Assembly: GCA_003139095.1 (NCBI GenBank)
Contig: PLHW01000046.1
Location: 142,209 to 196,941 of the forward strand
Source of the DNA: Acidobacteriaceae bacterium
GTDB taxonomy: Bacteria > Acidobacteriota > Terriglobia > Terriglobales > Acidobacteriaceae
Reading direction: 5' to 3'
Length of the DNA stretch: 54,733 nucleotides
Below, one piece after another: positions 11,428-51,644 of the stretch. The first letter of the stretch is position 1. Every line of letters begins with the position of its first letter. The position numbers were made by a program, and so were the translations under genes. The notes below the pieces were generated by a model. The model was not told the DNA's origin. It worked only from the letters and a program-made list of their open reading frames with translations, and made no database searches.

Positions 11428-13236
11428 ATGAAACTCCGAATTGTCCTGCTGCTCGCCCTGACGGCAGGGTTGCTGATCTCTTCGTTGGCGGCGCAGAGAG
11501 CGCCGTCCGTCTCCGCGCAAGGCTCGGCAGTACAAGGCTCGCCGTCGACGCAGGCCGGCTCGCCGGAACTGGCAAGATTTTTTGCGGACTACTTTGAGGA
11601 GCGGCTGCGCGACTCGCCCGAGTTTGCGACCAACATTGGCCGGCATGAGTATGACGATCGCTGGACGGATTTCTCCAAAGAAGGAGTGGGGCGGCGGCGG
11701 GCGCATCTGGAGCGGGTTTTGGCTACGGACGAGAAATTTTATGCGGGTCGCACTTCCCTTTCCGAGCAGGATCAGCTGAGCGTGGAGTTGCTGCGCTACG
11801 ACTTGCGCACGCAGCTTGATGCGTTTGACCTGGACACGTATCTGCTGCGCGTGGGGCAGATGTTTGGGTTCCACAACAACGTGTACACGGTGATCGACCG
11901 CATGCCCGTGTTTACGGTGAAGGATTGCGAGAACATCGTTGCGCGCATTCGGGCGGTGCCGTCGTATGTGGACGAGAACCTGGGGATTCTGGACGAGGCG
12001 ATTGGGCGCGGCTGGACGCAGCCGAAGATTGTTTCGGACCTGGTGATCGGACAGTTGAAGGTGCAGGCGGAGCAGGACGCGACGACGACTCCGCTGCTCG
12101 TTTTTTTGAAGAAGATGCCGGGGAGTATTCCGGAGACGGAGCGCGAGCGCTTGCGGAAAGAGGCGATGGCGGCGTACGAGAACGATTTTCGTCCGGCGTG
12201 GCGAAAGGCGCTCGACTACATGCAAACGAAGTATGCGCCGCACGTGCGGGCGGGGATTGGGATTTCGACGATGCCGGGCGGGGCGGAGGCGTACCGGGTG
12301 CTGATCCGCCGGCTGACGACGACGGATGCGACGCCGGAGGAGATCCACAAGATTGGGCTCGCAGAGGTGGACCGGATTGAGGCGGAGATGCTGGCGATTG
12401 CGCGGCAGACGGGCTTTCAGGGGTCGGTCAGCGAGTTGCAGGTGAAGCTGGAGAACGATCCGGCGCAGAGGTTTCACTCGAAGGACGAGATGCTGGCGTA
12501 TTGCCGGAATGCGGCGATGATCATTGAGCCTGAACTGCCAAACCAGTTCAAGCATATTCCGATGCTGCTGTTTGGGGTTCGGGCGATTCCGGAAGACCGG
12601 GAGCAGGCAACGGCGTCGAACGCGCAGCCGCCGTCGCCGGATGGCAGCACGCCGGGATGGTTCAACCTGCGGGCGTATCAGCCGGAGAAGCAGGTGAAGT
12701 ACGACAAGGAGGCGCTGGTGCTGCATGAGGCGATTCCGGGACATATTTTTCAGGGATCGCTGGCGCACTCGCAGAAGGGCTTGCCGGAGTTTCGGAAATT
12801 TTATTGGAACAGCGCGTATGGCGAAGGATGGGCGCTTTATGCGGAGTCGCTGGGATCGCAGCTGGGATTGTATGTAGACCCGTACAACAAATTTGGACAA
12901 CTGGCGAGCGAGCGGTTCCGGGCGGCGCGGCTGGTGATCGATACGGGCGTGCACGCGATGGGCTGGACGCGCGAGCAGGCGCAGGATTATTTGCGGGCGC
13001 ACGCTCCGACCCAGGCGATTGAGGAAGTGGACCGATATATTTCGTGGCCGTCGCAGGCGCTGTCCTACAAGATGGGGCAGTTGAAGATTGTGGAGATGAG
13101 GAAGCAGGCGGAGGCGAAGCTGGGGGCGAAGTTCGATGTGAGGGACTTTCACGATGCGGTGCTGAGGGATGGAGCGCTGCCGCTGGAATTGCTGGAGGAG
13201 GAAGTGGGGCGGTACATTGCGGGAGGTCAGAGGTAA
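11428..13236 (+). CDS. Exported DUF885 family protein, putative metallopeptidase
   Basis: A 602-residue protein with a signal peptide ending about residue 23 (LLISSLAAQ). DUF885 members are predicted zinc peptidases; the signature HEAIPGHIFQG is present near residue 430, followed by FYWNSAYGEGWALYAE carrying the likely third ligand, and the C-terminal SWPSQALSYKMGQLKI block is also typical. Substrate is unknown; cleavage of peptides in the periplasm is the usual proposal. GGAGG lies 13 to 9 bases before ATG 11428 and TACAAT is at about 11401. The stop codon (13234-13236) falls inside a heptamer array, so the last residues are repeat-encoded. Confidence 0.92.
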   Translation: MKLRIVLLLALTAGLLISSLAAQRAPSVSAQGSAVQGSPSTQAGSPELARFFADYFEERLRDSPEFATNIGRHEYDDRWTDFSKEGVGRRRAHLERVLATDEKFYAGRTSLSEQDQLSVELLRYDLRTQLDAFDLDTYLLRVGQMFGFHNNVYTVIDRMPVFTVKDCENIVARIRAVPSYVDENLGILDEAIGRGWTQPKIVSDLVIGQLKVQAEQDATTTPLLVFLKKMPGSIPETERERLRKEAMAAYENDFRPAWRKALDYMQTKYAPHVRAGIGISTMPGGAEAYRVLIRRLTTTDATPEEIHKIGLAEVDRIEAEMLAIARQTGFQGSVSELQVKLENDPAQRFHSKDEMLAYCRNAAMIIEPELPNQFKHIPMLLFGVRAIPEDREQATASNAQPPSPDGSTPGWFNLRAYQPEKQVKYDKEALVLHEAIPGHIFQGSLAHSQKGLPEFRKFYWNSAYGEGWALYAESLGSQLGLYVDPYNKFGQLASERFRAARLVIDTGVHAMGWTREQAQDYLRAHAPTQAIEEVDRYISWPSQALSYKMGQLKIVEMRKQAEAKLGAKFDVRDFHDAVLRDGALPLELLEEEVGRYIAGGQR

Positions 13237-13257
13237 GAGGTAGGATTGCAGAAGTAA
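13223..13257. repeat. Heptamer array overlapping the DUF885 stop codon
   Basis: Five 7-nt units: gaggtca, gaggtaa, gaggtag, gattgca, gaagtaa. The second unit supplies the TAA stop of the DUF885 gene. The 7-nt phase continues to the inverted arm at 13271-13292, where units read ttagaac, ctctaac, aagaccc. Confidence 0.75.
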
Positions 13258-13270
13258 AACGTTTCAAGCT

Positions 13271-13684
13271 CTTAGAACCTCTAACAAGACCCTCATCTTC
13301 TCCAACTTTCCTTATAAGTATTGTAGTTTCAAGGAGTCCACATGGCAAAGCCCCCGATTGGAACAATTCAAAAACGAGACAACTACATATGCCAGTATTG
13401 CGGAAAGGACGGACTTGAATCGCTGGTCAATTGGCATGACAGCACGGTCGATCACTTTAGGCCCCGAAAGTATGGCGGCACAGATGATTCGGAAAACTTA
13501 GTGACGAGTTGCGGTCACTGCAATTCCATCAAGGGTGATCTGCTATTCGGATCACTAGAGGAGTGCAAGGTATACATCCTCAAACGACGTGCCGAACTCC
13601 AGATAACCTTTGAAGCAGTCAAGAAAGCCGTACGCGGGTGATCCGCCATTTTCCAGCCTCAAGGGTTTTGTTAGAGCCTCTTAT
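13271..13684. repeat. Inverted arms flanking the HNH gene
   Basis: The left arm (13271-13292) read on the minus strand and the right arm (13663-13684) read on the plus strand match at 17 of 22 positions, with the core GGGTyTTGTTAGAG shared. The arms lie 49 bases before the HNH start and 21 bases after its stop. This is an imperfect inverted repeat and could mark the ends of a small inserted unit. Confidence 0.5.
13342..13641 (+). CDS. Small HNH endonuclease
   Basis: A 99-residue protein that is essentially one HNH nuclease domain. The CQYCG zinc knuckle lies at residues 17-21, the first catalytic histidine region is VDHFRPRKYGG (D37, H38), and the second half is NLVTSCGHCNSIKGD (N52, C57, C60, N61). 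So the four zinc cysteines and the H-N-H residues are present. HNH enzymes of this size cut DNA, often as parts of mobile elements or defence systems. An AAGGAG box five bases upstream supports ATG 13342. The gene is visibly less GC-rich than its neighbours and lies between imperfect inverted arms, suggesting acquisition. Confidence 0.9.
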   Translation: MAKPPIGTIQKRDNYICQYCGKDGLESLVNWHDSTVDHFRPRKYGGTDDSENLVTSCGHCNSIKGDLLFGSLEECKVYILKRRAELQITFEAVKKAVRG

Positions 13685-13745
13685 GTCCGACTGTGATGGA
13701 AAAATCGAATTGGGACGCTTAGATCATGTGTTCTAATCTTAGCGA

Positions 13746-14624
13746 ATGACGGAACAGGAGCTACTGGACGCGCGGGCGGTGAAGTGGCGGCTGGACGGGC
13801 AACCGGTGCGCACGCTGGAAGACGCGCGGGCGTTTATCGAGTCGGTGGGATTTTGTCTGATGTATCCAACGCGACCGAGCGTGCTGGCGCCGACGTTTAT
13901 CGGGGCGTGGGTGGGCGAAGACGACCGGCTGCCGATGCAGCAACATGCGTATTCCGACTTGCGGGCGAAAGAAGCGAACGAGTTGATGGTGCGGGTGCTG
14001 CGGGCGAAGGCGGCGTACGAAGCTCCGCTGATCGACGAGAATAATCCGTTCCTGGTGTCGCCGGCGGCGTTTCCGTTTTTTTATGCGCTGGTGGGGGAGC
14101 GGAACCCGAAGGTCGCGCCCAAGGCGGGGCCGCGCTCGGCGTACTCGCCGCTGGCCTGCGATGCGTTTCAAATCATCCGGCGGATGGGACCGATCTCAAA
14201 AAGAAAACTGCTGGAATTGCTGGGCGGGGGACTCTCGACAGCGGGTTCGGACCGAGCGCTTGCGGAATTGTTTGCCAAGCTGCGAATTACGCGGGTGGAT
14301 TACACGGAGGAAGAAGGTTCGGTGTGGGACGAGTTGACGCGATGGGCGCCTGACAAGGTGTGGGAGGGCGTGAGCGCGTCGATGGGGCAGGCGCTCTCGG
14401 CGCTGCTGTCGAAATACATGGATTGCGTGGTGGCGGCGGAACAGGAAGAGGTGGAGAATTTCTTTTCCGTATTTGTTCCGCGGTCGAAGGCGCGGGAGGG
14501 GATTAAGGCGCTGCTGGCGGCGCGCGAGCTGGGCTATGTACACATGGGGAGCAGGACGCTGCTGCAAGTGGCGCCGCGACGGGAGCCGTTTGTGTTGCGG
14601 CCACGGGTGGAGCGGGTGCGGTAG
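13746..14624 (+). CDS. Winged-helix DNA-binding protein, AlkZ/YcaQ-related (tentative)
   Basis: A 292-residue cytoplasmic protein. It begins TEQELLDARAVKWRLDGQ, has FCLMYPTRPSVLAPTFIGAW around residue 37, and a likely winged-helix segment about 140-190 (DAFQIIRRMGPISKRKLLELL followed by LAELFAKLRITRV). That arrangement resembles proteins labelled AlkZ-related or winged-helix DNA-binding in Acidobacteriota. I do not see the catalytic QxQ motif that defines true AlkZ glycosylases, so activity on DNA is only a possibility. ATG 13746 has no ribosome site; a TAATCT box ends seven bases upstream, consistent with a leaderless transcript. Confidence 0.6.
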   Translation: MTEQELLDARAVKWRLDGQPVRTLEDARAFIESVGFCLMYPTRPSVLAPTFIGAWVGEDDRLPMQQHAYSDLRAKEANELMVRVLRAKAAYEAPLIDENNPFLVSPAAFPFFYALVGERNPKVAPKAGPRSAYSPLACDAFQIIRRMGPISKRKLLELLGGGLSTAGSDRALAELFAKLRITRVDYTEEEGSVWDELTRWAPDKVWEGVSASMGQALSALLSKYMDCVVAAEQEEVENFFSVFVPRSKAREGIKALLAARELGYVHMGSRTLLQVAPRREPFVLRPRVERVR

Positions 14625-14632
14625 GCGAGAGC

Positions 14633-14658
14633 GGATTCCTCCCTGCGGTCGGAATGAC
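14633..14658 (-). repeat. REP-like repeat copy
   Basis: A reverse-oriented copy (GGATTCCTC...CGGAATGAC) of the family seen at 423-575, placed between the stop of the winged-helix gene and the cmk promoter. Confidence 0.65.
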
Positions 14659-14720
14659 AAGGCAATAGGGCCGAAATTACAAGGCATATGCAGCAGATGG
14701 TTTTCCGCGCGGGCAGCATG

Positions 14721-14726
14721 TAGAAT
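14721..14726 (+). promoter_or_regulatory. Probable -10 box of cmk
   Basis: TAGAAT ends 13 bases before the cmk ATG, so transcription would begin only a few bases before the start codon. The same TAGAAT box precedes mqnA, mqnC and tkt. No good -35 box is visible. Confidence 0.45.
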
Positions 14727-14739
14727 CGGCCTTCGCGTC

Positions 14740-15429
14740 ATGGTCGATTTCAACTCAAAAAAACTTATTATTGCGATAGACGGGCCGGCGGGCGCGGGCA
14801 AGAGTACCGTGGCGGCGCGGGTGGCGCGGAAGCTCGGGTATGTAAACCTGGACAGCGGCGCGATGTACAGGGCTTTGGCGCTGAAGGCGATTGAGGGCGA
14901 CGCCGCATTTGAGGACGAGGACGCGCTGGTGAAGATGGCGCACGGGTCGCGCATCCGGCTGGAGCCGACGGTGAGCGGCAACCGCGTACTGCTTGATGGG
15001 CGCGACGTTTCGGGGCGCATCCGCGAGCGCGATGTGACGGAGGCGGCGTCAAAGGTATCGGTGCATCCGGCGGTGCGCGCGTGGATGGTGGCCCGGCAGC
15101 GTGAGATGGGATTGGGCGGCGGCGTAGTGATGGAAGGCCGCGATATTGGGACGAAGGTTTTTCCGGACGCCGATCTGAAGATTTTTCTGGATGCCGATCC
15201 GGTGATCCGCGAGCAGAGGCGGCTGGATCAGCAGCGAATTAAGGGCGCGCCGGCGGAATCGATGGCGGCGGAGTTGCGGGAGCGCGATCTGCGGGACCGA
15301 ACGCGCGCGGCGTCACCGCTGGTGGCGGCGGAGGATGCGATGCTGCTGGATTCCACGCACTTGAGCGAGGACGCAGTGGTGGAGCAGATCGAACGGCTGG
15401 CGCGGGAAAAACTGGCGGCTAAGGGATAG
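14740..15429 (+). CDS. cmk: Cytidylate kinase
   Basis: A 229-residue P-loop kinase that phosphorylates CMP and dCMP. The P-loop GPAGAGKST lies at residues 15-23, followed by LDSGAMYRALAL; the CMP-binding part shows VMEGRDIGTKVFPDADLKIFL, and the lid region has RDLRDRTRAASPL. Length matches the family. I placed the start at ATG 14740 because homology begins there; the longer open frame from 14473 overlaps the previous gene and encodes unrelated residues. The start lacks a ribosome site and lies just after a TAGAAT box, so the mRNA may be nearly leaderless. Confidence 0.96.
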   Translation: MVDFNSKKLIIAIDGPAGAGKSTVAARVARKLGYVNLDSGAMYRALALKAIEGDAAFEDEDALVKMAHGSRIRLEPTVSGNRVLLDGRDVSGRIRERDVTEAASKVSVHPAVRAWMVARQREMGLGGGVVMEGRDIGTKVFPDADLKIFLDADPVIREQRRLDQQRIKGAPAESMAAELRERDLRDRTRAASPLVAAEDAMLLDSTHLSEDAVVEQIERLAREKLAAKG

Positions 15430-15539
15430 GCTTCTCTTGGCGCAGACTGAAAGCGCTGCGCGATCATCCGCGCGTTTTGCCTCGGAAATAAAATTCAGCG
15501 CTCCCTGAAATCATCCAGCCTGCTACACTCTCTCGATCT

Positions 15540-16634
15540 ATGAGAACCCTGAAGGTGTTGCTTGAGTCCTACGTCTTCACAGCCGTGGTCTTTTTAGTCG
15601 CCGGCGTGAGCTTCGCGCAAACGCCATCTCCGTCAGCCGCGCCTCCTGCTGCCGCGACCGAACTGCGCACGCCGGAAGAAAAGCATCTGCGCAATGTGCG
15701 GCAGTTGACGTTTGGAGGGTCGAATGCGGAGGCGTACTTTTCGGCGGACGGCAAGAAACTTATTTTTCAGTCGACGCGCAACGGCCTGGGATGCGACCAG
15801 ATCTTCACAATGAACTTGGATGGAAGCGACCAGAAGATGGTCTCGACCGGCAAGGGACGGACAACGTGCAGCTATATTTTTCCATCGAATGACAAGATTC
15901 TTTATTCGTCGACGCACTTGGGTGATGCGGCATGCCCGCCGAGGCCGGATTACTCGAAGGGGTACGTTTGGGCGGTCTATCCGTCGTATGACATTTTTAC
16001 GGCGAAGATGGACGGCTCGGATCTGAAGCAACTCACGACCACGCCCGGATATGACGCGGAGGCAACGATCTCCGAGGATGGAAAGAAGATTGTCTTCACT
16101 TCCCTGCGCAATGGCGATCTCGACATTTATTCGATGGATGCGGATGGGAGCCATGTGGAGCAACTGACGCACGAATTGGGCTACGATGGCGGCCCGTTTT
16201 ATTCGAAAGACCGGCAATGGATTGTGTATCGCGCGTATCATCCGAAGACCGACGCCGAGATTGCCGAGTACAAAGAGCTGCTGAAGCAGAACCTGATTCG
16301 CCCGACGACGCTGGAGATTTGGCTGATGAAGGCCGATGGTAGCGGCAAACGGCAGTTGACGAACCTGAATGCGGCGAGTTTTGCGCCGTCGTTTTTTCCG
16401 GATGGGAAGCGGAGTATTTTTGCGACCAACGTGGGCTCGACGGGTGGGATGGGGAATTTTGAGTTGTACACGATCCGCGTAGACGGAACGGGGCTGGAGC
16501 GAATTACGTTCAGCGATGGATTTGACGGGTTCCCCATGTTCAGTCCGGACGGAAAGCAGTTGGTGTGGATTTCGCATCGCAACGGGAAAGAGACACACGA
16601 GACGAATGTGTTTATTGCGGACTGGGTGGAGTGA
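15540..16634 (+). CDS. Exported TolB-like beta-propeller (PD40) protein
   Basis: A 364-residue protein with a signal sequence ending near residue 28 (LVAGVSFAQ), so periplasmic. It then carries about five to six PD40/WD40-like propeller blades, seen as AEAYFSADGKKLIFQSTR, AEATISEDGKKIVFTSLR, YDGGPFYSKDRQWIVYRAY, FAPSFFPDGKRSIFATN and FDGFPMFSPDGKQLVWISHR. TolB uses such blades to bind Pal, but this protein lacks the TolB N-terminal domain and stands away from tol genes, so it is only propeller-related. A TACACT box ends 12 bases before ATG 15540, with no ribosome site. Confidence 0.88.
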   Translation: MRTLKVLLESYVFTAVVFLVAGVSFAQTPSPSAAPPAAATELRTPEEKHLRNVRQLTFGGSNAEAYFSADGKKLIFQSTRNGLGCDQIFTMNLDGSDQKMVSTGKGRTTCSYIFPSNDKILYSSTHLGDAACPPRPDYSKGYVWAVYPSYDIFTAKMDGSDLKQLTTTPGYDAEATISEDGKKIVFTSLRNGDLDIYSMDADGSHVEQLTHELGYDGGPFYSKDRQWIVYRAYHPKTDAEIAEYKELLKQNLIRPTTLEIWLMKADGSGKRQLTNLNAASFAPSFFPDGKRSIFATNVGSTGGMGNFELYTIRVDGTGLERITFSDGFDGFPMFSPDGKQLVWISHRNGKETHETNVFIADWVE

Positions 16635-16644
16635 GGGAGGGCAG

Positions 16645-16686
16645 GAAGTCGGAAGTCAGAAGTGAGAAGTGAGAATGCAGAAGTAA
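16645..16686. repeat. Heptamer array after the TolB-like gene
   Basis: Six 7-nt units: gaagtcg, gaagtca, gaagtga, gaagtga, gaatgca, gaagtaa, beginning 10 bases after the stop. The closing pair ga(a/t)tgca then gaagtaa is the same as at 13223-13257. Confidence 0.75.
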
Positions 16687-16812
16687 AAACCTATCCTTCC
16701 CTATTTTTCCAGTCTAAGAGCACAGTGTTTTGCTTAAAAACTTCTTCCACACATTGACTCCGATCGGCTGCGTGAAGTTTACGCACCCATAAGATTCGCC
16801 TGATCGGTGAAG

Positions 16813-17739
16813 CTACTCGGCCATCGCGCGGCCTGCGGCGCGGGCTCGGGCGAGTGCGCCCATTGCTGGTTCGACGAAATCATCGAGAAGCGCGATGCCG
16901 GGGAAATTTTTCTCAAGCCGATTGTGGAAAACGCGACGCACCTCCGCCGACTGCCGAAAGACGCTGCCCGTGGTGGCCACCGGGACGTAAGGGGGGGCCG
17001 GAGAGACGCGGCGGAGCACGATGCTAGCGAGGTCGGCCAACTCGGCGCCGGCATGGGCCAGGAGTTCGAGTGAAAGCGGGTCGCCGTGCTCGGCGGCGCG
17101 CGCCACAATTCGAGAGAGGCGCGGGAACTCGGGAGGCGGGGTTGAATTGGCGCGCTGGATGAGTTCGTCGATGTCGGCGAGTTTCCAGGCTTCGAGAATG
17201 AGCGCGGTGAGCGCGGTTTCGCGGCCCTCGTCGCGCGCGCGCAGGAGCGCGGAAACGGCGTGGCGACCGATCCATTGACCGGAGCCTTCATCGGAGATCG
17301 CAAATCCCCAACCGCCGGCGCGCGAGGTGAGCCCGGCGGAGTCGCGTCCGTAGACGATCGAGCCCGTGCCGGCGATTGCGATTACACCGGGACGGGAGCC
17401 GAAAGCGGCCTCGAGCGCGATGACCGCGTCCGTGACAACTTCGATGCGGTCCGCGAACTGAGCCTCGAGTTCGGTGAGCAAACGACGCAGTGTGGCGGCG
17501 ATGGCGGGCCGGGCCGCGCCGGCAGCGCCAATGCAGAGTGCGCGAATCTGGCGGGAGGAGATTTTTGCGGCGACGCACGCCTGCCGCACGACCGCGTGCA
17601 GCGATTCGCGCGCTTGCGCTTCGCCGAGGCGAACGATGTTGCAGCCGCCGGCTACCGCGGTGCCCAGCACCATCGTTTCATCGCCGACTACGCAACGCGT
17701 CTTGGTGCCACCGCCGTCAATGCCGAGGTAGAAGCTCAT
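16813..17739 (-). CDS. BadF/BadG/BcrA/BcrD-type ATPase, N-acetylglucosamine kinase-like
   Basis: A 308-residue ASKHA-fold kinase. The phosphate-1 motif GIDGGGTKTRCVVGD starts at residue 6; a later AGTGSIVYG and a GGWGFAISDEGSGQWIG block (about residues 141-157) are typical of the GlcNAc kinase-like branch of the BadF family, in which the enzyme phosphorylates an amino sugar using ATP. The 2-hydroxyacyl-CoA dehydratase activators of the same family carry a cysteine cluster that is absent here, so a sugar kinase is the better guess. It is divergent from the symporter gene, with about 170 bases between. Confidence 0.88.
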   Translation of the reverse strand: MSFYLGIDGGGTKTRCVVGDETMVLGTAVAGGCNIVRLGEAQARESLHAVVRQACVAAKISSRQIRALCIGAAGAARPAIAATLRRLLTELEAQFADRIEVVTDAVIALEAAFGSRPGVIAIAGTGSIVYGRDSAGLTSRAGGWGFAISDEGSGQWIGRHAVSALLRARDEGRETALTALILEAWKLADIDELIQRANSTPPPEFPRLSRIVARAAEHGDPLSLELLAHAGAELADLASIVLRRVSPAPPYVPVATTGSVFRQSAEVRRVFHNRLEKNFPGIALLDDFVEPAMGALARARAAGRAMAE

Positions 17740-17908
17740 GTCATCGGGTCATCTGGCGATCGGTCCTCGGGTCATCTGAACATCCGACGGCTCGGGAACA
17801 CGATCTCGCGATGCCGGTAGTAGTTCTAACACAGGTTCGGGCGGAGTTTCTGCGTGGAACATGCTTGTACAATGCTCGACAATTCAGGTAGCGGACTGCG
17901 GAGTTGAA

Positions 17909-19375
17909 TTGGGATTGAATCGGACCGACCTGCTGATTATCGGGTTGTACCTGGCGGGGATCACGCTGTTTGGACTGCGATTTCGCAAGCGCCAGCGCAC
18001 GATGCGCGATTATTTTCTGGCCGATCGCGAAATTCCGTGGTGGGCCATCTCGCTCTCGATTGTCGCGGCGGAGACGAGCACGCTGACCATCATCAGTATT
18101 CCCGGGCTGGCCTACGATTCGAATTTTACTTTTCTGCAATGGGTGATGGGTTATCTGGTGGGGCGCGTCATTATCAGCTTTGTGCTGCTCCCGCAGTATT
18201 TTCGCGGCGACCTCTACACGGCTTACCAGTTGATTGAGCGGCGCTTTGGGCAGACGCTGCGGAGCGTGACGGCCGGACTGTTTCTGCTGACGCGCGCGGC
18301 GGCGGAGGGCGTGCGCGTGTATGCGGTGTCGATTGTGGTGGCGATTGCGATCGGCACAGGCGAGGTTGCTTCGATTGCAATCATCACGCTGCTGACTTTG
18401 ATTTACACGTTCGAGGGCGGATTGGCTGCGGTGATTTGGACGGACGTGGTGCAGACGTTCATTTATATCGGCGGCACGCTAGTGGGATTGTTCACGATTC
18501 TGCATCTGATTCCGGGAGGATGGAGCGCAGCGCAGGCGACGGCCGCAGGGTTGCACAAATTCCAGGTGTTCGATTTTTCGCTTACCAACGGCGCGACCTC
18601 GGCGCATTGGCCTTCTTTACTTCTTGCGAAGCCATACACAATTTGGGCGGGAATTATCGGCGGCGCGTTCTTCACCACGGCGAGCCATGGGACCGATCAG
18701 CTGATCGTGCAGCGGCTGCTGGCGGCGCGCAATCAGCGGCAGTCGGCGTTGGCACTCGTCTCGAGCGGAGTCGCCATCCTGTTTCAGTTCGCGTTATTTC
18801 TTTTTGTTGGCGTGATGCTGTTTGCTTACTATCGCGCGCCGTCGGCGGCGTTTGGGCGGGCCGACAGAATCTATCTGACGTTTATTGTGAGCCGGATGCC
18901 GCACGGGATCTCGGGGCTGCTGATTGCGGCGATCCTGGCGGCGGCAATGTCGAACCTGAGCGCAGCGTTGAACTCGCTGTCGTCGAGTTCGATGATGGAT
19001 TTTTGCTTTCGATTCTGGCCGGAGGGAAGCGAGGCGCGGCGTTTGCGGATGGCGCGGCTGGGAACGGTGGTCTGGGCGCTCGTTTTGTTTGGACTGGCAG
19101 TGGTGGCGTTGCATCGGGTGGGGCGCGTGGTGGAGGTTGGGTTGCAGATTGCGTCGATTGCGTACGGGGCGCTGCTAGGAGTGTTTTTGCTGGGGGTGCT
19201 TACAAAACGCGCCAATCAAAGCGGAGCGATTGCCGGCATGATCTGCGGGCTGGTGACTGAAGTTTATTTGTGGGGATGGACGCAGGTGGCGTTCACGTGG
19301 TGGGTGGCGATTGGGACGTGCGTGACTTTTGCGGTCGGATATGCTCTGAGTATGATAACGCGGGCAAGGGATTGA
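17909..19375 (+). CDS. Sodium:solute symporter (SSS family)
   Basis: A 488-residue inner-membrane transporter with about 13 hydrophobic segments. The SSS pattern is clear: DLLIIGLYLAGITLFGLRFR, the DYFLADREIPWWAIS substrate-gate region, VAAETSTLTIISIPGLAYDS, and SHGTDQLIVQRLLAARN in the middle. It imports a solute with sodium; the substrate (sugar, amino acid or a sialic-acid-like compound) cannot be assigned. I prefer TTG 17909, which has GGAG five bases upstream and starts where homology starts; an ATG at 17861 in the same frame would add 16 unconvincing residues. Its last bases overlap the next gene. Confidence 0.92.
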   Translation: MGLNRTDLLIIGLYLAGITLFGLRFRKRQRTMRDYFLADREIPWWAISLSIVAAETSTLTIISIPGLAYDSNFTFLQWVMGYLVGRVIISFVLLPQYFRGDLYTAYQLIERRFGQTLRSVTAGLFLLTRAAAEGVRVYAVSIVVAIAIGTGEVASIAIITLLTLIYTFEGGLAAVIWTDVVQTFIYIGGTLVGLFTILHLIPGGWSAAQATAAGLHKFQVFDFSLTNGATSAHWPSLLLAKPYTIWAGIIGGAFFTTASHGTDQLIVQRLLAARNQRQSALALVSSGVAILFQFALFLFVGVMLFAYYRAPSAAFGRADRIYLTFIVSRMPHGISGLLIAAILAAAMSNLSAALNSLSSSSMMDFCFRFWPEGSEARRLRMARLGTVVWALVLFGLAVVALHRVGRVVEVGLQIASIAYGALLGVFLLGVLTKRANQSGAIAGMICGLVTEVYLWGWTQVAFTWWVAIGTCVTFAVGYALSMITRARD

Positions 19376-19770
19376 ATCCGAATCACATTACTTCCGAAAT
19401 CATCGGCGCGGCCATAAAGGTCCATCGAAAACTGGGGCCGGGGCTACTGGAGTCCGCTTACGAATCGTGCATGGAGTACGAACTAACGACAGCCGGGTTG
19501 CAGGTGGAGAGACAGAAAGCCGTGCCGCTTGTCTATGCAACGGTGAAGCTCGATTGTGGCTTTCGTGCAGATTTGGTTGTGAATGGGCTCGTTGTAGTCG
19601 AACTGAAATGTAAAGAAGCGCTTCATCCCGTGGATGAGGCTCAGCTTTTATCATATTTGCGGCTACTCAATCTTCCGGTCGGGTTACTCATCAATTTTCA
19701 CGTGGTCATGCTCAAGGACGGGATTCGCCGACTGGTTAATAACTATCGGGAGGAGGAATTTTTACCTTAG
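19372..19770 (+). CDS. GxxExxY family protein, PD-(D/E)XK nuclease fold
   Basis: A 132-residue protein. The family-defining GLLESAY lies at residues 24-30 and a PD-(D/E)XK-like site reads D67 with E77-L-K79 (ADLVVNG...VVVELKCKEAL). These proteins are small and of unknown activity; a nucleic-acid-cutting role is inferred only from the fold. TTG 19372 is the most likely start: it overlaps the symporter stop as TTGA, and no in-frame ATG occurs before the conserved part except one inside the symporter gene. A 23-bp-arm inverted repeat with 9-nt units follows 14 bases after the stop. Confidence 0.88.
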   Translation: MNPNHITSEIIGAAIKVHRKLGPGLLESAYESCMEYELTTAGLQVERQKAVPLVYATVKLDCGFRADLVVNGLVVVELKCKEALHPVDEAQLLSYLRLLNLPVGLLINFHVVMLKDGIRRLVNNYREEEFLP

Positions 19771-19784
19771 GCCAGAACCAAAAT

Positions 19785-19876
19785 CTTAAACCGCAGAGTT
19801 CGCAGAGGAAACGCTGAGGACGCTGAGAGGTTTCCGCGATCTCCGCGGCTTCTCTCTGCGCACTCTGCGGTTAAAG
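19785..19876. repeat. Inverted repeat of 9-nt units (cgcagag type)
   Basis: Left arm 19785-19807 and right arm 19854-19876 are reverse complements at 21 of 23 positions. Inside, degenerate 9-nt units such as cgcagagtt, cgcagagga, aacgctgag and gacgctgag follow each other. Such CGCAGAG arrays are often seen near GxxExxY genes in other genomes, as far as I recall; here the whole inverted repeat lies downstream of the gene. Confidence 0.75.
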
Positions 19877-19902
19877 GCTTTCGTCCGAATCGGCAGAGAA
19901 GC

Positions 19903-22494: not shown

Positions 22495-22509
22495 AATGGG
22501 GAGAGTGTT

Positions 22510-24303: not shown

Positions 24304-24327
24304 CCGGCTTACAAGTTGAGTGAAGCG

Positions 24328-26005: not shown

Positions 26006-26029
26006 GCGATAGACAGTCAGTTTTTTTTG

Positions 26030-26069
26030 CTCCCTCGTATCTTGATAAGATACGAGGGAGGTTTTTTTT
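26030..26069 (+). terminator. Strong rho-independent terminator
   Basis: A perfect 14-bp stem (CTCCCTCGTATCTT with AAGATACGAGGGAG) and a 3-nt loop is followed by eight T residues at 26062-26069. It begins 25 bases after the stop of the kelch-like gene. Another T8 run precedes the stem, so it works only for the plus strand. Confidence 0.95.
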
Positions 26070-26114
26070 AATTGTAAGTTGATTCCCCTCAGAGCTTCGC
26101 TGGCAATAAGGAGC

Positions 26115-26828: not shown

Positions 26829-26876
26829 GATACCGGCTGCGGAAGCATGCGGCAGTTTTGATAAGATCGAACTCAC

Positions 26877-28583: not shown

Positions 28584-28602
28584 GGTCCGTCGCAAACCGG
28601 CA

Positions 28603-29394: not shown

Positions 29395-29423
29395 AGTTCC
29401 GCCAGGGGCCGTTAGCAGTTGCC

Positions 29424-30272
29424 CTACACCCACTCCACGCGCGGCTCTTGCGCAATGATGCCGGCCTTGTGTCCCATGTCGAGCAGGCGGCGCACCGCTT
29501 CCCTTCCGTCGTCGCCGTAGTCGAGCGTGCGGTCATTCACGTACATGCCGACAAACTTGTCCGCAAGCTGCGGGTCGAGGTCGCGCGCAAACTGCATCGC
29601 GTAGGCGAGAGCTTCTTCGCGGTGATCGATTGCATACTGAATACTCTCGCGCAGCGCCTGGGTCACACTGGCCATCGTCTCCGCACCCAGCGAGCGGCGG
29701 ATCGCGTTGCCGCCGAGCGGCAAGGGGAGGCCGGTCACTTTCAGCCACCATTTGCCGAGATCGACCACGCGATGCAATCCCGATTTGTCGTAGGTGAGCT
29801 GGCCCTCATGGATGATCAGCCCCGCTTCGTATTTTCCTTCGAGAATCTGCGGGATGATCTGGTCAAAAGGAACAACCTCGACGTCGATGCCGGGCGCAAA
29901 CAGTTGCAGGGCCAGGTAGGCCGTCGTCAACTTTCCGGGCACAGCAATCTTCTTGCTCTTGATCTCACTGGTGGTAAACGATCGCGTCGAAACCAGCATG
30001 GGGCCGTATCCATCGCCCACACTCCCGCCGCACGACATAAGAGCGTAATTCTCCTGAATGTACGGGTAGGCGTGGAATGAAATCGCGGTCACATCGTAAA
30101 CGCCGCGCTGGGCGTCGCGATTCAGCGTTTCAATGTCGCACAACGTGTGCGTGAAACGAAGCCCGGGCACGCGCACTTTGTTCGTGGCCAGACCGTAAAA
30201 CATGAATGCGTCGTCGGAATCCGGGCTGTGCGCCACTGTGATTTCGCGAACCGGAGAAGAAACTGTACTCAT
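29424..30272 (-). CDS. mqnD: 1,4-dihydroxy-6-naphthoate synthase
   Basis: A 282-residue enzyme of the futalosine pathway, cleaving cyclic dehypoxanthinyl futalosine to 1,4-dihydroxy-6-naphthoate on the way to menaquinone. The family signature begins ITVAHSPDSDDAFMFYGL, followed by DIETLNRDAQRGVYDVTAISFHAY and a mid-protein GLIIHEGQLTYDKSGL with the catalytic His. Length is typical. ATG 30272 is chosen because the protein aligns from there; the longer frame to 30353 has no support. The other pathway genes in the window, mqnA and mqnC, are 6 and 8 kb away on the other strand. Confidence 0.95.
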   Translation of the reverse strand: MSTVSSPVREITVAHSPDSDDAFMFYGLATNKVRVPGLRFTHTLCDIETLNRDAQRGVYDVTAISFHAYPYIQENYALMSCGGSVGDGYGPMLVSTRSFTTSEIKSKKIAVPGKLTTAYLALQLFAPGIDVEVVPFDQIIPQILEGKYEAGLIIHEGQLTYDKSGLHRVVDLGKWWLKVTGLPLPLGGNAIRRSLGAETMASVTQALRESIQYAIDHREEALAYAMQFARDLDPQLADKFVGMYVNDRTLDYGDDGREAVRRLLDMGHKAGIIAQEPRVEWV

Positions 30273-30434
30273 AATTTCAGACTTGGCTTTCGGCTGTCGG
30301 AATCGGGCTTGGAACGTTAACTTCCGATTGGATATTGGACGGTCGTCGAACAAGCGCTAATTTTTCTTCCGGCGCGAAGCGAAGATTTTTCACATCCCCG
30401 CAGGCCAGGAAACTCTCAGATATATTCGATCCCG

Positions 30435-31088
30435 TCAAACTCTTGCGGAAGATTGCCGCTTCCATGTGCCGGCAATTCCCGCTGCCAGCATGATCTTGAT
30501 CACCTCGGCAAATACGAACCAGTAAAGGCCCCAGCGAACGGCCTGCGCGAGCGAATGGGTGAATAGGAATAGCCAGCTCAGCCCACCGCAAAAAAGCACG
30601 ATCTCTGCGGCTGTTCCCGCGACTGCGCCCCAGGCGAAACTGCGCGAGGAGCGTTCGTAGATCCAGCCGGCAACGAAGGCCACGAAAGGATACGCCATCA
30701 GGAATCCGCCGGTTGCGCCCATCAACTGAGCCACGCCGCCCGGCCCGGGACTGAACACCGGTAATCCCATTGCGCCCTCGGCGAGATAAAGAGCCAGGGC
30801 AAGGAAGCCCCGCCGCGAACCGAGCGTAAGAGCCACGGCCAGTACGCCGAAATTCGACAGCGTGAGCGGCACCGGGGTAAACGGGAGCGGCACGGTGACG
30901 CGCGCACACACGGCCACGAAGAGGCTGGCGCCGATCACAATGGCAGCGTTCTTCGCCCACTCCTCGGCGCGCGAAATGTGCTGGACTTCGGTATAGGGTT
31001 GCGAAACTTCGCTCGGCAAAACCTCGCTCGGCAAAACCTGCGTCGGCAAAATCTGGCTCGGAAAAAGCTTGGCCTGCACCTTCGACAT
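30435..31088 (-). CDS. bioY: Biotin transporter BioY
   Basis: A 217-residue membrane protein, the substrate-binding S component of the biotin energy-coupling factor transporter (BioY can act alone or with EcfA/EcfT). About six hydrophobic helices are visible, with the BioY signatures LPFTPVPLTLSNFGVL, SRRGFLALALYLAEGAMGLPVF and GGFLMAYPFVAFVAGW. The first about 30 residues are an unusual extension: a pentapeptide repeat P-(S/T)-(Q/E)-(V/I)-L coded by 15-nt DNA repeats. It is followed by mqnD 162 bases downstream on the same strand. No BirA operator was recognised. Confidence 0.93.
   Translation of the reverse strand: MSKVQAKLFPSQILPTQVLPSEVLPSEVSQPYTEVQHISRAEEWAKNAAIVIGASLFVAVCARVTVPLPFTPVPLTLSNFGVLAVALTLGSRRGFLALALYLAEGAMGLPVFSPGPGGVAQLMGATGGFLMAYPFVAFVAGWIYERSSRSFAWGAVAGTAAEIVLFCGGLSWLFLFTHSLAQAVRWGLYWFVFAEVIKIMLAAGIAGTWKRQSSARV
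31001..31075. repeat. 15-nt tandem repeat inside the bioY N-terminus
   Basis: Five in-frame 15-nt units (pattern gcaaaacctcgctcg with changes) at 31001, 31016, 31031, 31046 and 31061. They encode a repeated pentapeptide in the BioY leader. The unit length is a multiple of three, so copy-number change would keep the frame. Confidence 0.8.
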
Positions 31089-31100
31089 AATCTCCCCTAG

Positions 31101-31256
31101 TTAAGCTTCAGGTGGCGGATCCTGGTCGGGCCCGTCCGATCCCGCCTTCAGAGCCGCCGAGGCCTTCATCTGCCTCCGCACCCGCATATAAAGCGAGGCA
31201 GCAACCGACAGGACAAGAACTAAGCTGACTCCCAGGATGAGAAACCACCAGAGCAT
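31101..31256 (-). CDS. Tiny single-span membrane protein
   Basis: A 51-residue open frame on the minus strand, ending at TAA 31103-31101 just upstream of bioY. It reads MLWWFLILGVSLVLVLSVAA, then a basic SLYMRVRRQMKASA and an acidic Pro-rich tail (DGPDQDPPPEA). This is the form of a small type I/II bitopic membrane protein: one hydrophobic helix at residues 2-20 followed by a positive stretch. A GTG at 31262 is a possible alternative start. The position 12 bases from bioY on the same strand suggests co-transcription. No family is recognised. Confidence 0.5.
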   Translation of the reverse strand: MLWWFLILGVSLVLVLSVAASLYMRVRRQMKASAALKAGSDGPDQDPPPEA

Positions 31257-31320
31257 CCGCACAACAACCTAGAATAGCAGAAGCATCGACGGCGCCGGTG
31301 CAGGCTTCCGCAACAAGTTT

Positions 31321-31779
31321 TTATTTCTTGCCCTTGGCAAGCGCGGCGCGACGCTTGTCCACATTCGCAGAAACCCGATCCAGTCGTTTGCGCGCCAGCT
31401 TCGAGCCGGTCGCCACTTGCTCGATGTTCGCCCATGCGTCCGGATTGCCCATTTTCTGCCGTATCTCCTTCAGAAATGGATGCACCTTGGCGAAGAAGAA
31501 AAACATTTCGCCGCTGTTGCCGGGCTGTATAAAGAGGTCTTCGTTAAGCGCGCCCTGGACCACGAGCGACGCCGCCATATCCCAGTAACTTTGCACCTGG
31601 CGAAGCCAGCTGTTTTCCTGGCTGGGAAACGCGTTGACAACTTTTAGAAAATCGTCGGCGCTCTGCGGCCAGAACTCCACCAGAAACCAATTCCTTGCCT
31701 TGCGCATCTCCTCTTCGCGACGTAGTTCGTAAAGCTTCAAGACTATCTGGGCATCGTTCGCGTTCGCTTTCTTTGCCAT
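31321..31779 (-). CDS. Conserved-looking protein of unknown function
   Basis: A 152-residue cytoplasmic protein: a charged N-terminal helix (VLKLYELRREEEMRKARNWF), an aromatic middle (FLVEFWPQSADDF, WLRQVQSYWDMAASLV, GEMFFFFAKVHPFL) and a Lys/Arg-rich tail (KLARKRLDRVSANVDKRRAA). There is no signal peptide or membrane helix. I do not recognise the family; good helical composition and normal codon use suggest a real gene. It lies upstream of topA's 3' end on the same strand, 49 bases away. Confidence 0.7.
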   Translation of the reverse strand: MAKKANANDAQIVLKLYELRREEEMRKARNWFLVEFWPQSADDFLKVVNAFPSQENSWLRQVQSYWDMAASLVVQGALNEDLFIQPGNSGEMFFFFAKVHPFLKEIRQKMGNPDAWANIEQVATGSKLARKRLDRVSANVDKRRAALAKGKK

Positions 31780-31828
31780 TTTCTCGCCTCGTCAGTTCAG
31801 ATATGACCGCTTTTTCGTTCGTGTTCTT

Positions 31829-34324
31829 TTATCCAGACTTCGCATCCGCCGTCAACTCGCCTGCTCCTTCACGCTCGTAATCGCATTCCTTGTTGGGGCA
31901 CGCGATCACGGTTCCCTCTTTGCGCAGACGCTCCACCAGGTATTCATTGCCGCATTTGGGGCATTTTTCTGCGAGCGGTTTCGCGGCGGAGGTGAATTTA
32001 CACTTCGGATACCTGGCGCATCCGTAAAATGTGTTTCCCTTGCGCGCGCGTTTTTCGACCAACTCGCCTTCCTTGCAAAGCGGGCACTTCACGCCGATGA
32101 AATTCTGCTTCACATACTTGCAGTCGGGATATCCGCTGCACGAAGTGAACTCGCCATAGCGGCCATGGCGAATGATCAGGTTGCGCCCGCAGTCCGGGCA
32201 CTTCTCATCCAGCGGAATGTCCGGCACACGCTTGCCCTGGTCGAGCCGGCGCGTGGTTTTGCAGTCCGGGTAACCCGTGCACGCCATGAACTGCCCAAAG
32301 CGCCCGCGCTTCAGCACCATCACGCGGCCGCAGTTTTCGCAGTACTCTTCCTGCGATGTCTCCTGCATATCCGCCGAATCGAGGTCCGGCAGATTGATAG
32401 GATTTTCTTTGGTGAAGGTGCAGGAGTTCGGATCCTCTTTATCGTATGTGCTGCAGGCGTAAAACGAGCCGTGCTTGCCCCACTTGATGACGAGCGGCGC
32501 GCCGCAACGCTCGCACTTCTCGTCCGTCGGCTTCTCCATACGCTTGATGTTCTCCATGTGCTTCTCGGCGTATCGGAGGTCCTTGGCGAACTTTTTGTAA
32601 AAGTCGGCGAGCGCATCGGTCCACTTTTCCTTGCCTTCTTCAATTTCGTCGAGCTCTTCTTCCAGGCGCGCGGTGTACTGAAAGTCGAAAATGTCTTTGA
32701 AGTTTTCGACCAGCAGATCGGTGACGACCAGCCCAATTTCGGTGGGAGTAAATTTTCCGCCCAGCTTTTGCGCGTATTGCCGCTCCTGAATCGTGCTCAG
32801 AATGGTGGCATAGGTCGAAGGCCGCCCAATGCCGCGCTCCTCCAGCTCTTTCACCAGCGACGCTTCGTTGTAGCGCGGAGGTGGTTCGGTGAAATGCTGT
32901 TCCGGCTTCAAGGACTTGAGCGTCAGCTTCTGTCCCGCTTCCAACGGCGGAAGCTTGTGCTTCAGTTCCTCGTCTTCCTCGTCTTTCGAGTCTTTCGACT
33001 CTTCGTAAACCTTGAGGAAGCCGTCGAACTTCATCACCGATCCGGTTACCCGGAACCAGAAGACTTCGTTTCCCGACTTCGCATCGATGTCGACCGTGGT
33101 TTGATCGAATACCGCCGGATTCATCTGCGAGGCGATAAACCGCTGCCATATCAGCTTGTAAACCTTGAACTCATCTTCCTGTAGATACTGCTTGACCTGG
33201 TCGGGATGCCGCATGGCTGAGGTGGGGCGAATCGCTTCGTGCGCGCCCTGCGCATCCTTCTTCTCCTTATATGTATTGGGGGATTCGGGTAAATATTGAG
33301 CGCCATACTCCCCCGTGATGTACTCGCGCACCTCGGCAATCGCTTCCGGCGCCACGCGCGTCGAATCGGTACGCATGTAAGTGATCAACCCAACCAGGCC
33401 TTCTTCGCCTAGTTCAACGCCTTCGTATAAGCGCTGCGCGATCATCATGGTGCGCTTGACGCTGAATCGGAGTTTGCGCGACGAATCCTGCTGCAATTTG
33501 CTGGTCGTAAACGGCGGAGTTGGATTGCGGCGCCGCTCCTTCTTTTCCGCCGAGCGGACGGCCCACTGCGCGCTCTCGAGGGCGAGGCGGATCTTCTCCG
33601 CATGCTCGCCATTCGTAATTTCGACCTTCTCTTCGCCCTTGCCGAGAAAGCGTGCGTCGAACGCGGGCGGCTTGCCGCCCGTCAGGTTCGCATCGATGGT
33701 CCAATATTCTTTTTTCTCGAAGGCCTTGATTTCGCGCTCGCGATCGACGATCAAGCGCAGCGCGACGGTCTGTACGCGCCCGGCGGACAACCCGCGCCGA
33801 ACCTTATCCCACAACAGCGGAGATACCTGATACCCCACCAGACGATCAAGCACACGCCGCGCTTGCTGCGCGTCCACCAGGTTCTGGTCGATGTCGCGAG
33901 GATGCTCAAACGCCGCTTTCACGGCGCGCTGCGTGATCTCGTTAAAAGTTACGCGCTGGATCCGCGGGCCATCGGCATCTTCCGCTTTTTTGGCGGTTTT
34001 TCCCTTTTTCTTTTTCTTGCCGTCGTCGCTGAGTTCGTCGGCCAGGTGCGCGGCGATGGCTTCGCCTTCGCGGTCCGGGTCAGGCGCCAGATAGATCTTG
34101 TCGGCGGAAAGCGCCAGCTTCTTCAGCTTGGCCAGAACCTTTTCTTTGCCGGGAATGACAACGTACTCGGTCAAGAACCCGTCTTCGACATCGACACCGA
34201 GGCTGCTCTTGGGCAGGTCCTTTACGTGCCCGAACGAGGCATCGACCGTGAATCCCTTCCCCAGATATTTCTGAATGGTTTTCGCCTTCGCGGGCGATTC
34301 GACAATGACTAGACCTTTGGACAA
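31829..34324 (-). CDS. topA: DNA topoisomerase I
   Basis: An 831-residue type IA topoisomerase that relaxes negative supercoils. The Toprim domain starts at residue 4 (LVIVESPAKAKTIQKYLG) and holds the acidic DPDREGEAIAAHL; a Lys-rich insert (about 105-120) sits in it. The catalytic tyrosine is in TYMRTDSTRV (about residue 320) and the core continues with RGIGRPSTYATIL. The C-terminal part has five zinc-ribbon modules of the pattern CxxCG...C(x)C, from CERCGAPLVIKWG to CPKCGNEYLV, somewhat more than the three or four typical of E. coli. Start ATG 34324. Confidence 0.97.
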   Translation of the reverse strand: MSKGLVIVESPAKAKTIQKYLGKGFTVDASFGHVKDLPKSSLGVDVEDGFLTEYVVIPGKEKVLAKLKKLALSADKIYLAPDPDREGEAIAAHLADELSDDGKKKKKGKTAKKAEDADGPRIQRVTFNEITQRAVKAAFEHPRDIDQNLVDAQQARRVLDRLVGYQVSPLLWDKVRRGLSAGRVQTVALRLIVDREREIKAFEKKEYWTIDANLTGGKPPAFDARFLGKGEEKVEITNGEHAEKIRLALESAQWAVRSAEKKERRRNPTPPFTTSKLQQDSSRKLRFSVKRTMMIAQRLYEGVELGEEGLVGLITYMRTDSTRVAPEAIAEVREYITGEYGAQYLPESPNTYKEKKDAQGAHEAIRPTSAMRHPDQVKQYLQEDEFKVYKLIWQRFIASQMNPAVFDQTTVDIDAKSGNEVFWFRVTGSVMKFDGFLKVYEESKDSKDEEDEELKHKLPPLEAGQKLTLKSLKPEQHFTEPPPRYNEASLVKELEERGIGRPSTYATILSTIQERQYAQKLGGKFTPTEIGLVVTDLLVENFKDIFDFQYTARLEEELDEIEEGKEKWTDALADFYKKFAKDLRYAEKHMENIKRMEKPTDEKCERCGAPLVIKWGKHGSFYACSTYDKEDPNSCTFTKENPINLPDLDSADMQETSQEEYCENCGRVMVLKRGRFGQFMACTGYPDCKTTRRLDQGKRVPDIPLDEKCPDCGRNLIIRHGRYGEFTSCSGYPDCKYVKQNFIGVKCPLCKEGELVEKRARKGNTFYGCARYPKCKFTSAAKPLAEKCPKCGNEYLVERLRKEGTVIACPNKECDYEREGAGELTADAKSG

Positions 34325-34384
34325 TGGTTCCTCAGTTTGGTAACGGTGAATTTGAAGCTAGCACGAATCGGCGGATTGCAACAA

Positions 34385-34419
34385 CCCGTTCTCAGTTGTC
34401 AGTTCTCAGTTCTCAGTTA
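34385..34419. repeat. Heptamer array (tcagttc type) at the 3' end of the S23 gene
   Basis: Units tcagttg, tcagttc, tcagttc and tcagtta at 34392-34419, with a less certain cccgttc before. Read on the minus strand they are gaactga/taactga, and the TAA of the last one is the stop codon of the S23-type gene. A partner array in inverse orientation lies at 34792-34812. Confidence 0.75.
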
Positions 34420-34772
34420 ACCGCCTTTACTTTTTGCATCAGCGAAGACAGCATCCGCTTTAGCTCGACTGCCTGTGTTGAAAGCCTGTCACGGTCCGGA
34501 TCCTTTAAATAGTCGAGGTCATGGGCGAGCAGAAGTTGATACTCGAGCTCGCCAGCCGATCCCATCGCAATTTGCAAAAACCGAGCCATCTCCGTACTGC
34601 TCTTTCTGCAACATCCTTCCGCGATGTTCGTTCCGATCGAAGCCGAGGCGCGACGCATCTGGCTTATGAGGCCGTACATTTCCTCTCGGGGAAAGGCCTT
34701 GCTGCAAGAGTAAATCTCCAGGGTCAAATGATGCGATTTCTCCCAAACTCGAAGACCGCGAAAATTCTGTAT
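34413..34772 (-). CDS. S23 / four-helix-bundle (23S rRNA intervening-sequence) protein
   Basis: The translated product reads QNFRGLRVWEKSHHLTLEIY, then MRRASASIGTNIAEGC and ends MQKVKAVN: the S23/IVP four-helix-bundle family, first known from intervening sequences of 23S rRNA and related in fold to Avd proteins of diversity-generating retroelements. No ATG, GTG or TTG precedes the conserved N-terminus; the codon where the family has Met is ATA (34772-34770), with GAGG six bases upstream. An internal TTG at 34727 would remove the first 15 conserved residues. So the gene either uses a rare ATA start or has lost its start. Both ends touch or approach heptamer arrays. Confidence 0.85.
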   Translation of the reverse strand: MQNFRGLRVWEKSHHLTLEIYSCSKAFPREEMYGLISQMRRASASIGTNIAEGCCRKSSTEMARFLQIAMGSAGELEYQLLLAHDLDYLKDPDRDRLSTQAVELKRMLSSLMQKVKAVN

Positions 34773-34791
34773 GACGTACCTCGTGGCTCTA

Positions 34792-34812
34792 CTGAAAACT
34801 GATAACTGATAA
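34792..34812. repeat. Heptamer array (aactga type) between the S23 gene and dprA
   Basis: Units ctgaaaa, ctgataa and ctgataa at 34792-34812. The array starts directly after the dprA stop (34815-34813, minus strand) and contains AACTGA, the inverse of TCAGTT at 34385-34419, so the two arrays flank the S23 gene as inverted repeats. Confidence 0.65.
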
Positions 34813-51618: not shown

Positions 51619-51644
51619 CTAAGAGAGTACGGGGTTAACAAGAA

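Follow-up and report, generated by a model that had tools for sequence, protein, structure and literature searches.

What are the small genes that lie beside inverted short repeats in an acidobacterial genome, and do they belong to one kind of mobile unit? The window, the whole stretch of DNA analysed here, comprises 54,733 nucleotides (nt) of an Acidobacteriaceae bacterium (GCA_003139095.1, contig PLHW01000046.1; C7:142209-196941 in a genome of 5.53 Mb in 75 contigs). We compared it with 23 relatives of the same genus, for 24 genus genomes in all. Three of its genes, assigned by profile to the HNH (PF01844), GxxExxY (PF13366/TIGR04256) and S23 (PF05635/TIGR02436) families, had been proposed in a first-pass annotation to form one family of repeat-bounded cassettes. 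We found that this holds for S23 and GxxExxY and fails for HNH, whose element has insertion sequence (IS)-like ends, a TWA duplication and no tandem units. The S23 and GxxExxY units consist of one gene between inverted arrays of 7-9-nt tandem units, and span 413-503 bp in the plasmid cases. Our best explanation, to which we give a probability of about 0.68, is that S23 genes and GxxExxY genes each represent the gene-carrying member of a family of small mobile elements, these being families of hairpin repeats that resemble REPIN/RAYT systems in their logic.

In the window, the S23 and GxxExxY genes and their repeats are arranged as follows.

34413..34772, minus strand: S23 (23S rRNA IVP) four-helix-bundle gene that begins with ATA and lies between topA and dprA (PF05635, E 2e-37)
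34791..34814, unstranded: upstream arm of the S23 unit, with TCAGTTA heptamers in the reading direction of the gene (array comparison)
34388..34418, unstranded: downstream arm of the S23 unit, inverted heptamers (array comparison)
19372..19770, plus strand: GxxExxY gene, putatively of the PD-(D/E)XK type, with a TTG start that overlaps the stop of a sodium:solute symporter gene (PF13366, E 9.8e-41; TIGR04256, E 5.1e-42)
19788..19873, unstranded: hairpin of about 9-nt units of the GxxExxY type, with gene-less versions at the same site in many relatives (fold and site comparison)

The heptamer arrays of opposite orientation that the first-pass annotation had described around the S23 gene were recovered at 34388-34418 and 34791-34814, as was the long inverted repeat after the GxxExxY gene at 19788-19873. 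The repeats and genes that it named were present, with corrected edges; the heptamer array that it had assigned to the HNH unit is no part of that unit.

Inverted short-tandem arms bounded S23 and GxxExxY genes far more often than other open reading frames (ORFs). Arms were scored by the best inverted match without gaps (+1/-2) between the flanks of a gene, about 260 nt on either side, with a score of at least 14 counted as a pass, and the control set was 729 ORFs of at least 90 amino acids (aa), called mechanically on 54 fetched stretches of at least 8 kb. Within the genus, 63 of 86 S23 loci and 22 of 31 GxxExxY loci had arms, compared with 8 of the 729 other ORFs; the median scores were 18, 21 and 8, respectively. 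These entries are not independent: some S23 entries are orthologues that stem from one insertion, three broken S23 genes each count twice, as two pieces, and the GxxExxY set has one such broken gene. Six of 92 S23 entries, too near contig ends, and one of 32 GxxExxY entries were left out of the scoring. The possibility that such arms are equally common around genes of every kind, which the first-pass annotation had itself raised, is contradicted by the control ORFs.

Arms of this kind were found beyond the genus. Among the best-scoring further GxxExxY loci from 199 Acidobacteriota genomes, 26 of 29 passed the threshold, as did 50 of the 79 scorable loci in the best 80 of 578 confirmed S23 loci, which come from Bacteroidota, Chloroflexi, cyanobacteria, Planctomycetota, Nitrospirota, Acidobacteria and other phyla. 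Plasmids gave 32 matches (24 S23 and 8 GxxExxY), of which 11 were read; the first seven all passed and then two of four. There was no S23 match in phages at E values up to 1e-5. We also looked for further passenger genes between arms: the control ORFs with arms at loci L109 and L172 resembled host genes (NrdR) or unidentified ORFs flanked by solo arrays, and this candidate was set aside. A 400-kb census of genus genome G015 gave two inverted array pairs, both too tight for a gene. Two individual records are worth mentioning. One GxxExxY gene with 9-nt arms lies between radA and a gene for an FAD-dependent protein in a Bacteroides record (L408:2489-2863), and another, without arms above threshold (score 11), lies between fabD and fabG in a Sphingomonas record (L419:1483-1911) and is a possible captured copy.

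Whole S23 units were present or absent as one piece in cyanobacterial plasmids. The Nostoc plasmids pC052_D and pNsp_c have a common backbone (89-99% identity) with an S23 unit in different gaps 0.3 kb apart, and neither plasmid has an insert at the site occupied in the other. With their arms, the inserts measure 413 and 503 bp and carry unrelated units (CAGGAGT and GGGAAAA), with matching arms within each. At a Trichormus site, two plasmids were empty (flank identity 97-98%) and the occupied site had a clean 5-bp duplication, GTAAT; a third record (L415) gave no clean comparison, its similarity running into the unit. No array was visible at the empty plasmid sites in seven comparisons. S23 units 79-83% alike over their full length were found at three sites with dissimilar adjoining DNA, where two of the 5-kb loci had one 137-bp stretch in common elsewhere. 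A further S23 unit lies between nrdB and nrdA-like genes, opposite to both neighbours, and one relative is empty there. In three cyanobacterial plasmids (L407, L416 and L418), S23 genes are inserted between the cas genes of type I-D and III-B operons. At the cas6-cas4 gap, a near-identical operon of Dolichospermum holds another stretch, of 273 nt, in place of S23. Clean absence of gene and arms with the flanks joined, which the first-pass annotation had named as the sign of insertion, was thus observed for S23 units in plasmids of cyanobacteria.

The S23 insertion in the window itself is old, because 20 of 22 genomes hold S23 between dprA and topA. With the array threshold lowered slightly, 18 of these 20 carry arrays on either side of the gene, and the unit differs from species to species, with the two arms remaining matched. 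A gene and arms at the same place in all relatives, the finding named beforehand as speaking against mobility, was nearly the case at this site; mobility was seen at other sites. The remaining two genomes, G012 and G022, have no S23 here, yet short array-like remnants persist after dprA, and loss of the gene is as likely as its never having been there. The window copy reads ATA at 34770-34772, where nine of ten compared orthologues have ATG or GTG. The ATA is perhaps a damaged start, and this copy may be losing expression.

The window S23 gene has two features of a ribosomal RNA (rRNA) intervening sequence, an S23/IVP ORF and complementary arms that flank it, and is located between protein genes instead of in an rRNA gene; no rRNA match was found in the window. 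A search for rRNA at 20 of the 80 many-phyla S23 loci gave one tRNA and no rRNA, the other 60 loci being outside that search.

The GxxExxY gene of the window occupies a site at which relatives have a hairpin and no gene. The symporter-permease gene pair is adjacent in 23 of 24 genus genomes, and GxxExxY lies between the two only in G000, G021 and G001. The other 20 of the 23 conserved sites have no GxxExxY gene, and at many of them a gene-less hairpin of the GxxExxY arm type is retained (for example in G002, G007, G017, G018, G020 and G023), so that the expected absence of the gene from some relatives was observed here too. In G001, the gene lies between two full hairpins. Both arms in the window are 3' of the gene; relatives show flanking arms. 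As single-stranded DNA, 19788-19873 had fold z scores of -6.35 and -6.86 on the two strands, and none of 200 shuffles was as good. GxxExxY can start at the TTG within TTGA, which overlaps the upstream stop. Residues D63, E73 and K75, the D and ExK of this nuclease fold, are each conserved in 30 of 31 aligned sequences, consistent with a putative PD-(D/E)XK nuclease-like protein.

GxxExxY arm motifs were numerous only in genomes with the gene. We compared 73 genomes with GxxExxY and 126 without it, from the 199 of the phylum, using one GxxExxY-type arm motif and no correction for kinship. The motif was present in 42 of the 73 genomes with the gene and 13 of the 126 without, and present at least three times in 29 of 73 versus 0 of 126 (Fisher test, 3e-15, not corrected for kinship). 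Gene-bearing genomes contained 403 of the 418 matches, with up to 77 in a genome with one detected gene, and the reversed motif gave three matches in the whole set of 199. For S23, period-7 arrays occurred at 0.35 per 100 kb in an S23-free genus genome (286 kb sampled) versus 10.0, 5.75 and 12.8 in three S23 carriers, and inverted array pairs numbered none versus 12, 2 and 7. In 410 kb of the source genome, which included stretches picked for holding S23 genes, there were 54 period-7 arrays, compared to 2 and 0 in two third-order Markov versions. Dispersed hairpins that are frequent only in gene-bearing genomes, the pattern of REPIN/RAYT systems, were thus seen for GxxExxY by one motif and for S23 by comparison with one gene-free genome.

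The repeat unit is specific to the locus and matched between the two arms. S23 arms are mostly made of 7-nt units, with some of 8, and GxxExxY arms mostly of 8-9-nt units of the CACAGAG, CACGGAG or CGCAGAG kind. Units vary among loci (GTTCTCA, GTCGTTA, AGCACTT, AGGTTTCA and others), and both arms of a locus that passes the score carry the same unit. Among loci without common flanks, arm similarity was correlated with protein similarity (Mantel r 0.45 for S23 and 0.29 for GxxExxY; 0 of 2000 permutations each). We considered whether one arm is an exact, or a simple fresh, copy of the other. A test of unit order gave weak or negative results (mean mid-p 0.41 and Wilcoxon p 0.053 for 32 S23 loci of the genus, 0.50 for 22 S23 loci of many phyla, and one GxxExxY locus), and this idea was rejected. 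Because unit order is not generally mirrored, it is the unit itself that the arms have in common, as would be the case if one protein bound at these sites or if pairing could tolerate one mismatch per unit. Mismatches between arms, read on the sense strand as G-U versus A-C, were 81 versus 54 for S23 (p 0.025, cells not independent) and 17 versus 19 for GxxExxY. With the lean to G-U weak for S23 and absent for GxxExxY, strand-specific RNA pairing was rejected as a general rule.

We propose that the encoded protein would recognise the repeat units at either end of its own element, in the form of DNA or of a folded strand, and would bring the two ends together. The unit, or a gene-less hairpin, would then be inserted via a short staggered cut. 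In this way the protein would support the spread of its own unit and, in trans, that of gene-less hairpins. GxxExxY may cut by itself, and S23 would need a partner enzyme. S23 might act as a ring-like oligomer that reads iterated units; two solved relatives, 2gsc and 2rld, were both deposited as uncharacterised proteins, with five chains per entry. We infer these roles in movement from sequence comparisons.

Several observations weigh against this explanation. Neither S23 nor GxxExxY units contain a known transposase. The target duplication was clean at one site only; elsewhere it was hidden by flank divergence or by other sequence at the gap, and at the Nostoc sites the overlap was an imperfect 5 bp and 3 bp. 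In the genus, 23 of 86 S23 genes and 9 of 31 GxxExxY genes, that of the window included, were below the arm threshold. Thirty-one of the 73 GxxExxY-bearing genomes were without the arm motif, in a comparison that uses one motif and ignores kinship, and array density was compared with one S23-free genome only. Unit order is not generally mirrored between the arms. Only close proteins share units, and arm similarity fades fast with protein divergence, which is not what a strict code of recognition between protein and unit would predict. Finally, we had predicted beforehand that genomes lacking the cognate S23 would hold almost no copies of one S23 unit of the CCCGG subtype, and this prediction failed. 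Five predicted genomes had 10-42 copies (median 29) and 19 others 0-36 (median 12; Mann-Whitney p 0.044), and only the S23-free G022 and G021 had none. The hairpin unit was common in several genomes without a recognised cognate S23, with 26 copies in G012, for example; its tie to the cognate S23 type is only weakly borne out.

The strongest competitor, although an unlikely one, is an element that acts at the level of RNA, in which the arms pair as an RNA stem on which RNase III acts to set the small gene apart from the host transcript or to remove it, the unit spreads via RNA and a reverse transcriptase, and S23, which may be kin to Avd, serves as an Avd-like RNA partner. In the window S23 transcript, the minimum-energy fold is closed by the arms, although against shuffled sequences the whole fold did not stand out clearly (z -1.67; 4 of 100 shuffles as good). 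The rRNA intervening sequences carry S23 as their gene and have a stem that is described as cut by RNase III (PMC4990558, consulted in part), and the S23 arm mismatches lean to G-U, a lean that is missing from GxxExxY. Neighbouring genes were mostly on the same strand for S23 over many phyla (58 of 64 upstream, 56 of 64 downstream) and for GxxExxY in the genus (28 of 30 and 25 of 31), but in the main genus S23 set the downstream neighbour was opposite in 29 of 43; these orientations come from rough stop-to-stop frames, are inconsistent between sets, and were not used as a main argument. The S23 unit between nrdB and the nrdA-like gene is opposite to both neighbours, and the 5-bp target duplication points to insertion of DNA.

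It is less probable still that another agent spreads the hairpin arrays and that the small genes merely insert into or beside them as preferred targets. This would account for the gene-less GxxExxY-type hairpins at the window site in relatives, for the gene between two full hairpins in G001, and for the abundance of the CCCGG unit in genomes without a recognised cognate S23. However, no genome without the GxxExxY gene was rich in hairpins (0 of 126 with at least three matches to the one motif), the empty plasmid sites held no visible array, and the arms of the two S23 units on one plasmid backbone differ from each other and match within each. Ordinary regulatory or terminator hairpins that flank small genes by chance would fit the intergenic position of the repeats, some of which abut stop codons. 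That explanation is very improbable given the eight passes among 729 other ORFs in the same test, the wholesale change of unit sequence while arms stay matched, and the presence or absence of gene and arms as one piece.

Families of mobile hairpin repeats with a gene-bearing copy, our preferred explanation, resemble three known systems without coinciding with any of them. The 23S rRNA intervening sequences have the same S23/IVP family and one small ORF between complementary arms; they are about 430 nt in Coxiella and sporadic in distribution, and a mobile origin has been suggested before (PMC4990558, in the parts consulted). The units described here differ in lying between protein genes, in having tandem arrays with locus-specific units as arms, and in having gene-less hairpin relatives. 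REPIN/RAYT systems likewise have a gene beside inverted short-repeat hairpins and many gene-less hairpins in gene-carrying genomes, and co-diversification of gene and hairpin has been proposed for them (the sections seen of PMC3116915). By contrast, the genes here are PF05635 and PF13366 and not a Y1 tyrosine transposase, the units form 7-9-nt tandem arrays, and the unit that bears the gene is itself mobile and can occur in several copies, RAYTs being described as single copy (PMC3116915). With no Y1 transposase and a location outside rRNA, the S23/GxxExxY units are neither REPIN/RAYT systems nor rRNA intervening sequences as defined. Intergenic heptamer arrays such as TAACTGA, of the same kind as the S23/GxxExxY arms, have been reported, also in Cyanobacteria, with no obvious exchange mechanism and with a repeat-binding protein floated as a mobile element; the main text yielded no mention of S23, 23S, four helix or GxxExxY, and inverted arms that bound a gene are not described in the parts of that paper examined (PMC4679880). 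We found no prior description of this architecture in the literature searched, to which most subscription journals did not belong.

This architecture may turn out to be the general one, with rRNA intervening sequences as a special case of it. We consider it an even chance that these units belong to a class of minimal mobile elements that extends across bacteria and has no recognised transposase. One small protein, the S23 four-helix bundle in one lineage and a GxxExxY nuclease in the other, would recognise its own 7-9-nt arms and would spread gene-less hairpins as well as the unit with the gene. On this view, rRNA intervening sequences would have arisen where S23 units landed in rRNA, and heptamer arrays across many genomes would be footprints of such elements. 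If true, this would make it testable how rRNA intervening sequences move, a process for which the ORF was long ago proposed to be needed (PMC4990558, as above), and where intergenic heptamer arrays originate, their exchange mechanism not being obvious in the parts seen of PMC4679880. It may also explain S23/IVP genes near CRISPR systems: S23 sits in cas operons of three plasmids here, and a 23S rRNA IVP is named in a figure legend in a CRISPR context (PMC10910872, seen in part).

The HNH gene of the window is the passenger of a different kind of element, which has the following parts.

13272..13274, unstranded: left copy of a 3-bp target duplication, TTA (the second copy of the element, L002, is flanked by TAA on both sides)
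13275..13292, unstranded: left terminal inverted repeat of the HNH cassette (comparison of two copies)
13342..13641, plus strand: HNH endonuclease-like gene, 99 aa, cassette passenger (PF01844, E 1.6e-13)
13663..13680, unstranded: right terminal inverted repeat of the HNH cassette (comparison of two copies)
13681..13683, unstranded: right copy of the 3-bp duplication, TTA, matching the left copy
13223..13262, plus strand: solo heptamer array (GAGGTCA..GATTGCAGAAGTAAAAC) outside the HNH cassette, with unit and tail like the arms of an S23 subgroup in relatives

As noted in the first reading of the sequence, the gene lies between imperfect inverted arms, the ends being 13275-13292 and 13663-13680 with TTA bordering each. 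A second copy on contig C44 (L002) is 95% identical over window 13271-13681, arm to arm, and trimming gives an element from 13275 to 13680 with 18-bp non-tandem inverted ends. Each copy has the same triplet on its two sides, TTA in the window and TAA in L002, a TWA duplication. Both copies thus have terminal inverted repeats at the exact copy boundaries together with a target duplication. The heptamer array before the gene (13223-13243) had been counted as part of the cassette. Similarity of the two copies starts only at the arm, and the array recurs at six other places of the source genome. We therefore rejected placement of HNH in the S23/GxxExxY architecture, its ends not being tandem arrays and the adjacent array lying outside the copied unit.

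Mobile insertion cassettes and miniature inverted-repeat transposable elements (MITEs) of this type have IS-like terminal inverted repeats, a short target duplication and a passenger gene, and are without a transposase. The HNH unit shares all of these features and differs in that its passenger is HNH. From the comparison of its copies, it looks like a mobile, transposase-less passenger cassette with IS-like ends, separate from the S23/GxxExxY units. An HNH end pattern (up to two mismatches) had 22 matches in 12 of 24 genus genomes versus 64 for the reversed control, a count that is no evidence; the cassette reading is unaffected, because its basis is the pair of copies with their duplications. 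In the source genome, the pattern search found no ends besides the four that belong to the two HNH units. The upstream gene at the HNH site was not beside the downstream gene in any of the other 22 genus genomes compared (three of these stretches were short, with <0.7 kb on the upstream side); the downstream gene is in 23 of 24. HNH relatives were rare, with the two own copies and one 42% relative in 297 phylum genomes (E up to 1e-12), and comparable ends were not seen around the 42% relative. Eleven of 15 inspected outside matches of the end pattern were preceded by TTA or TAA, and three more did not fit the pattern used for this inspection. One HNH-like end in G010 (L025) lies beside a frame with an IS4/5 transposase domain (DUF4096); a second end was looked for there and not found.

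Solo heptamer arrays of the GAGGTCA / GAAGTCA type are also present at window 10470-10485 and 16644-16684, outside any assigned gene-bearing unit. The sole Rfam match of the window at the gathering threshold is an Acido-Lenti-1 RNA (RF01687) at 51644-51689 on the minus strand.

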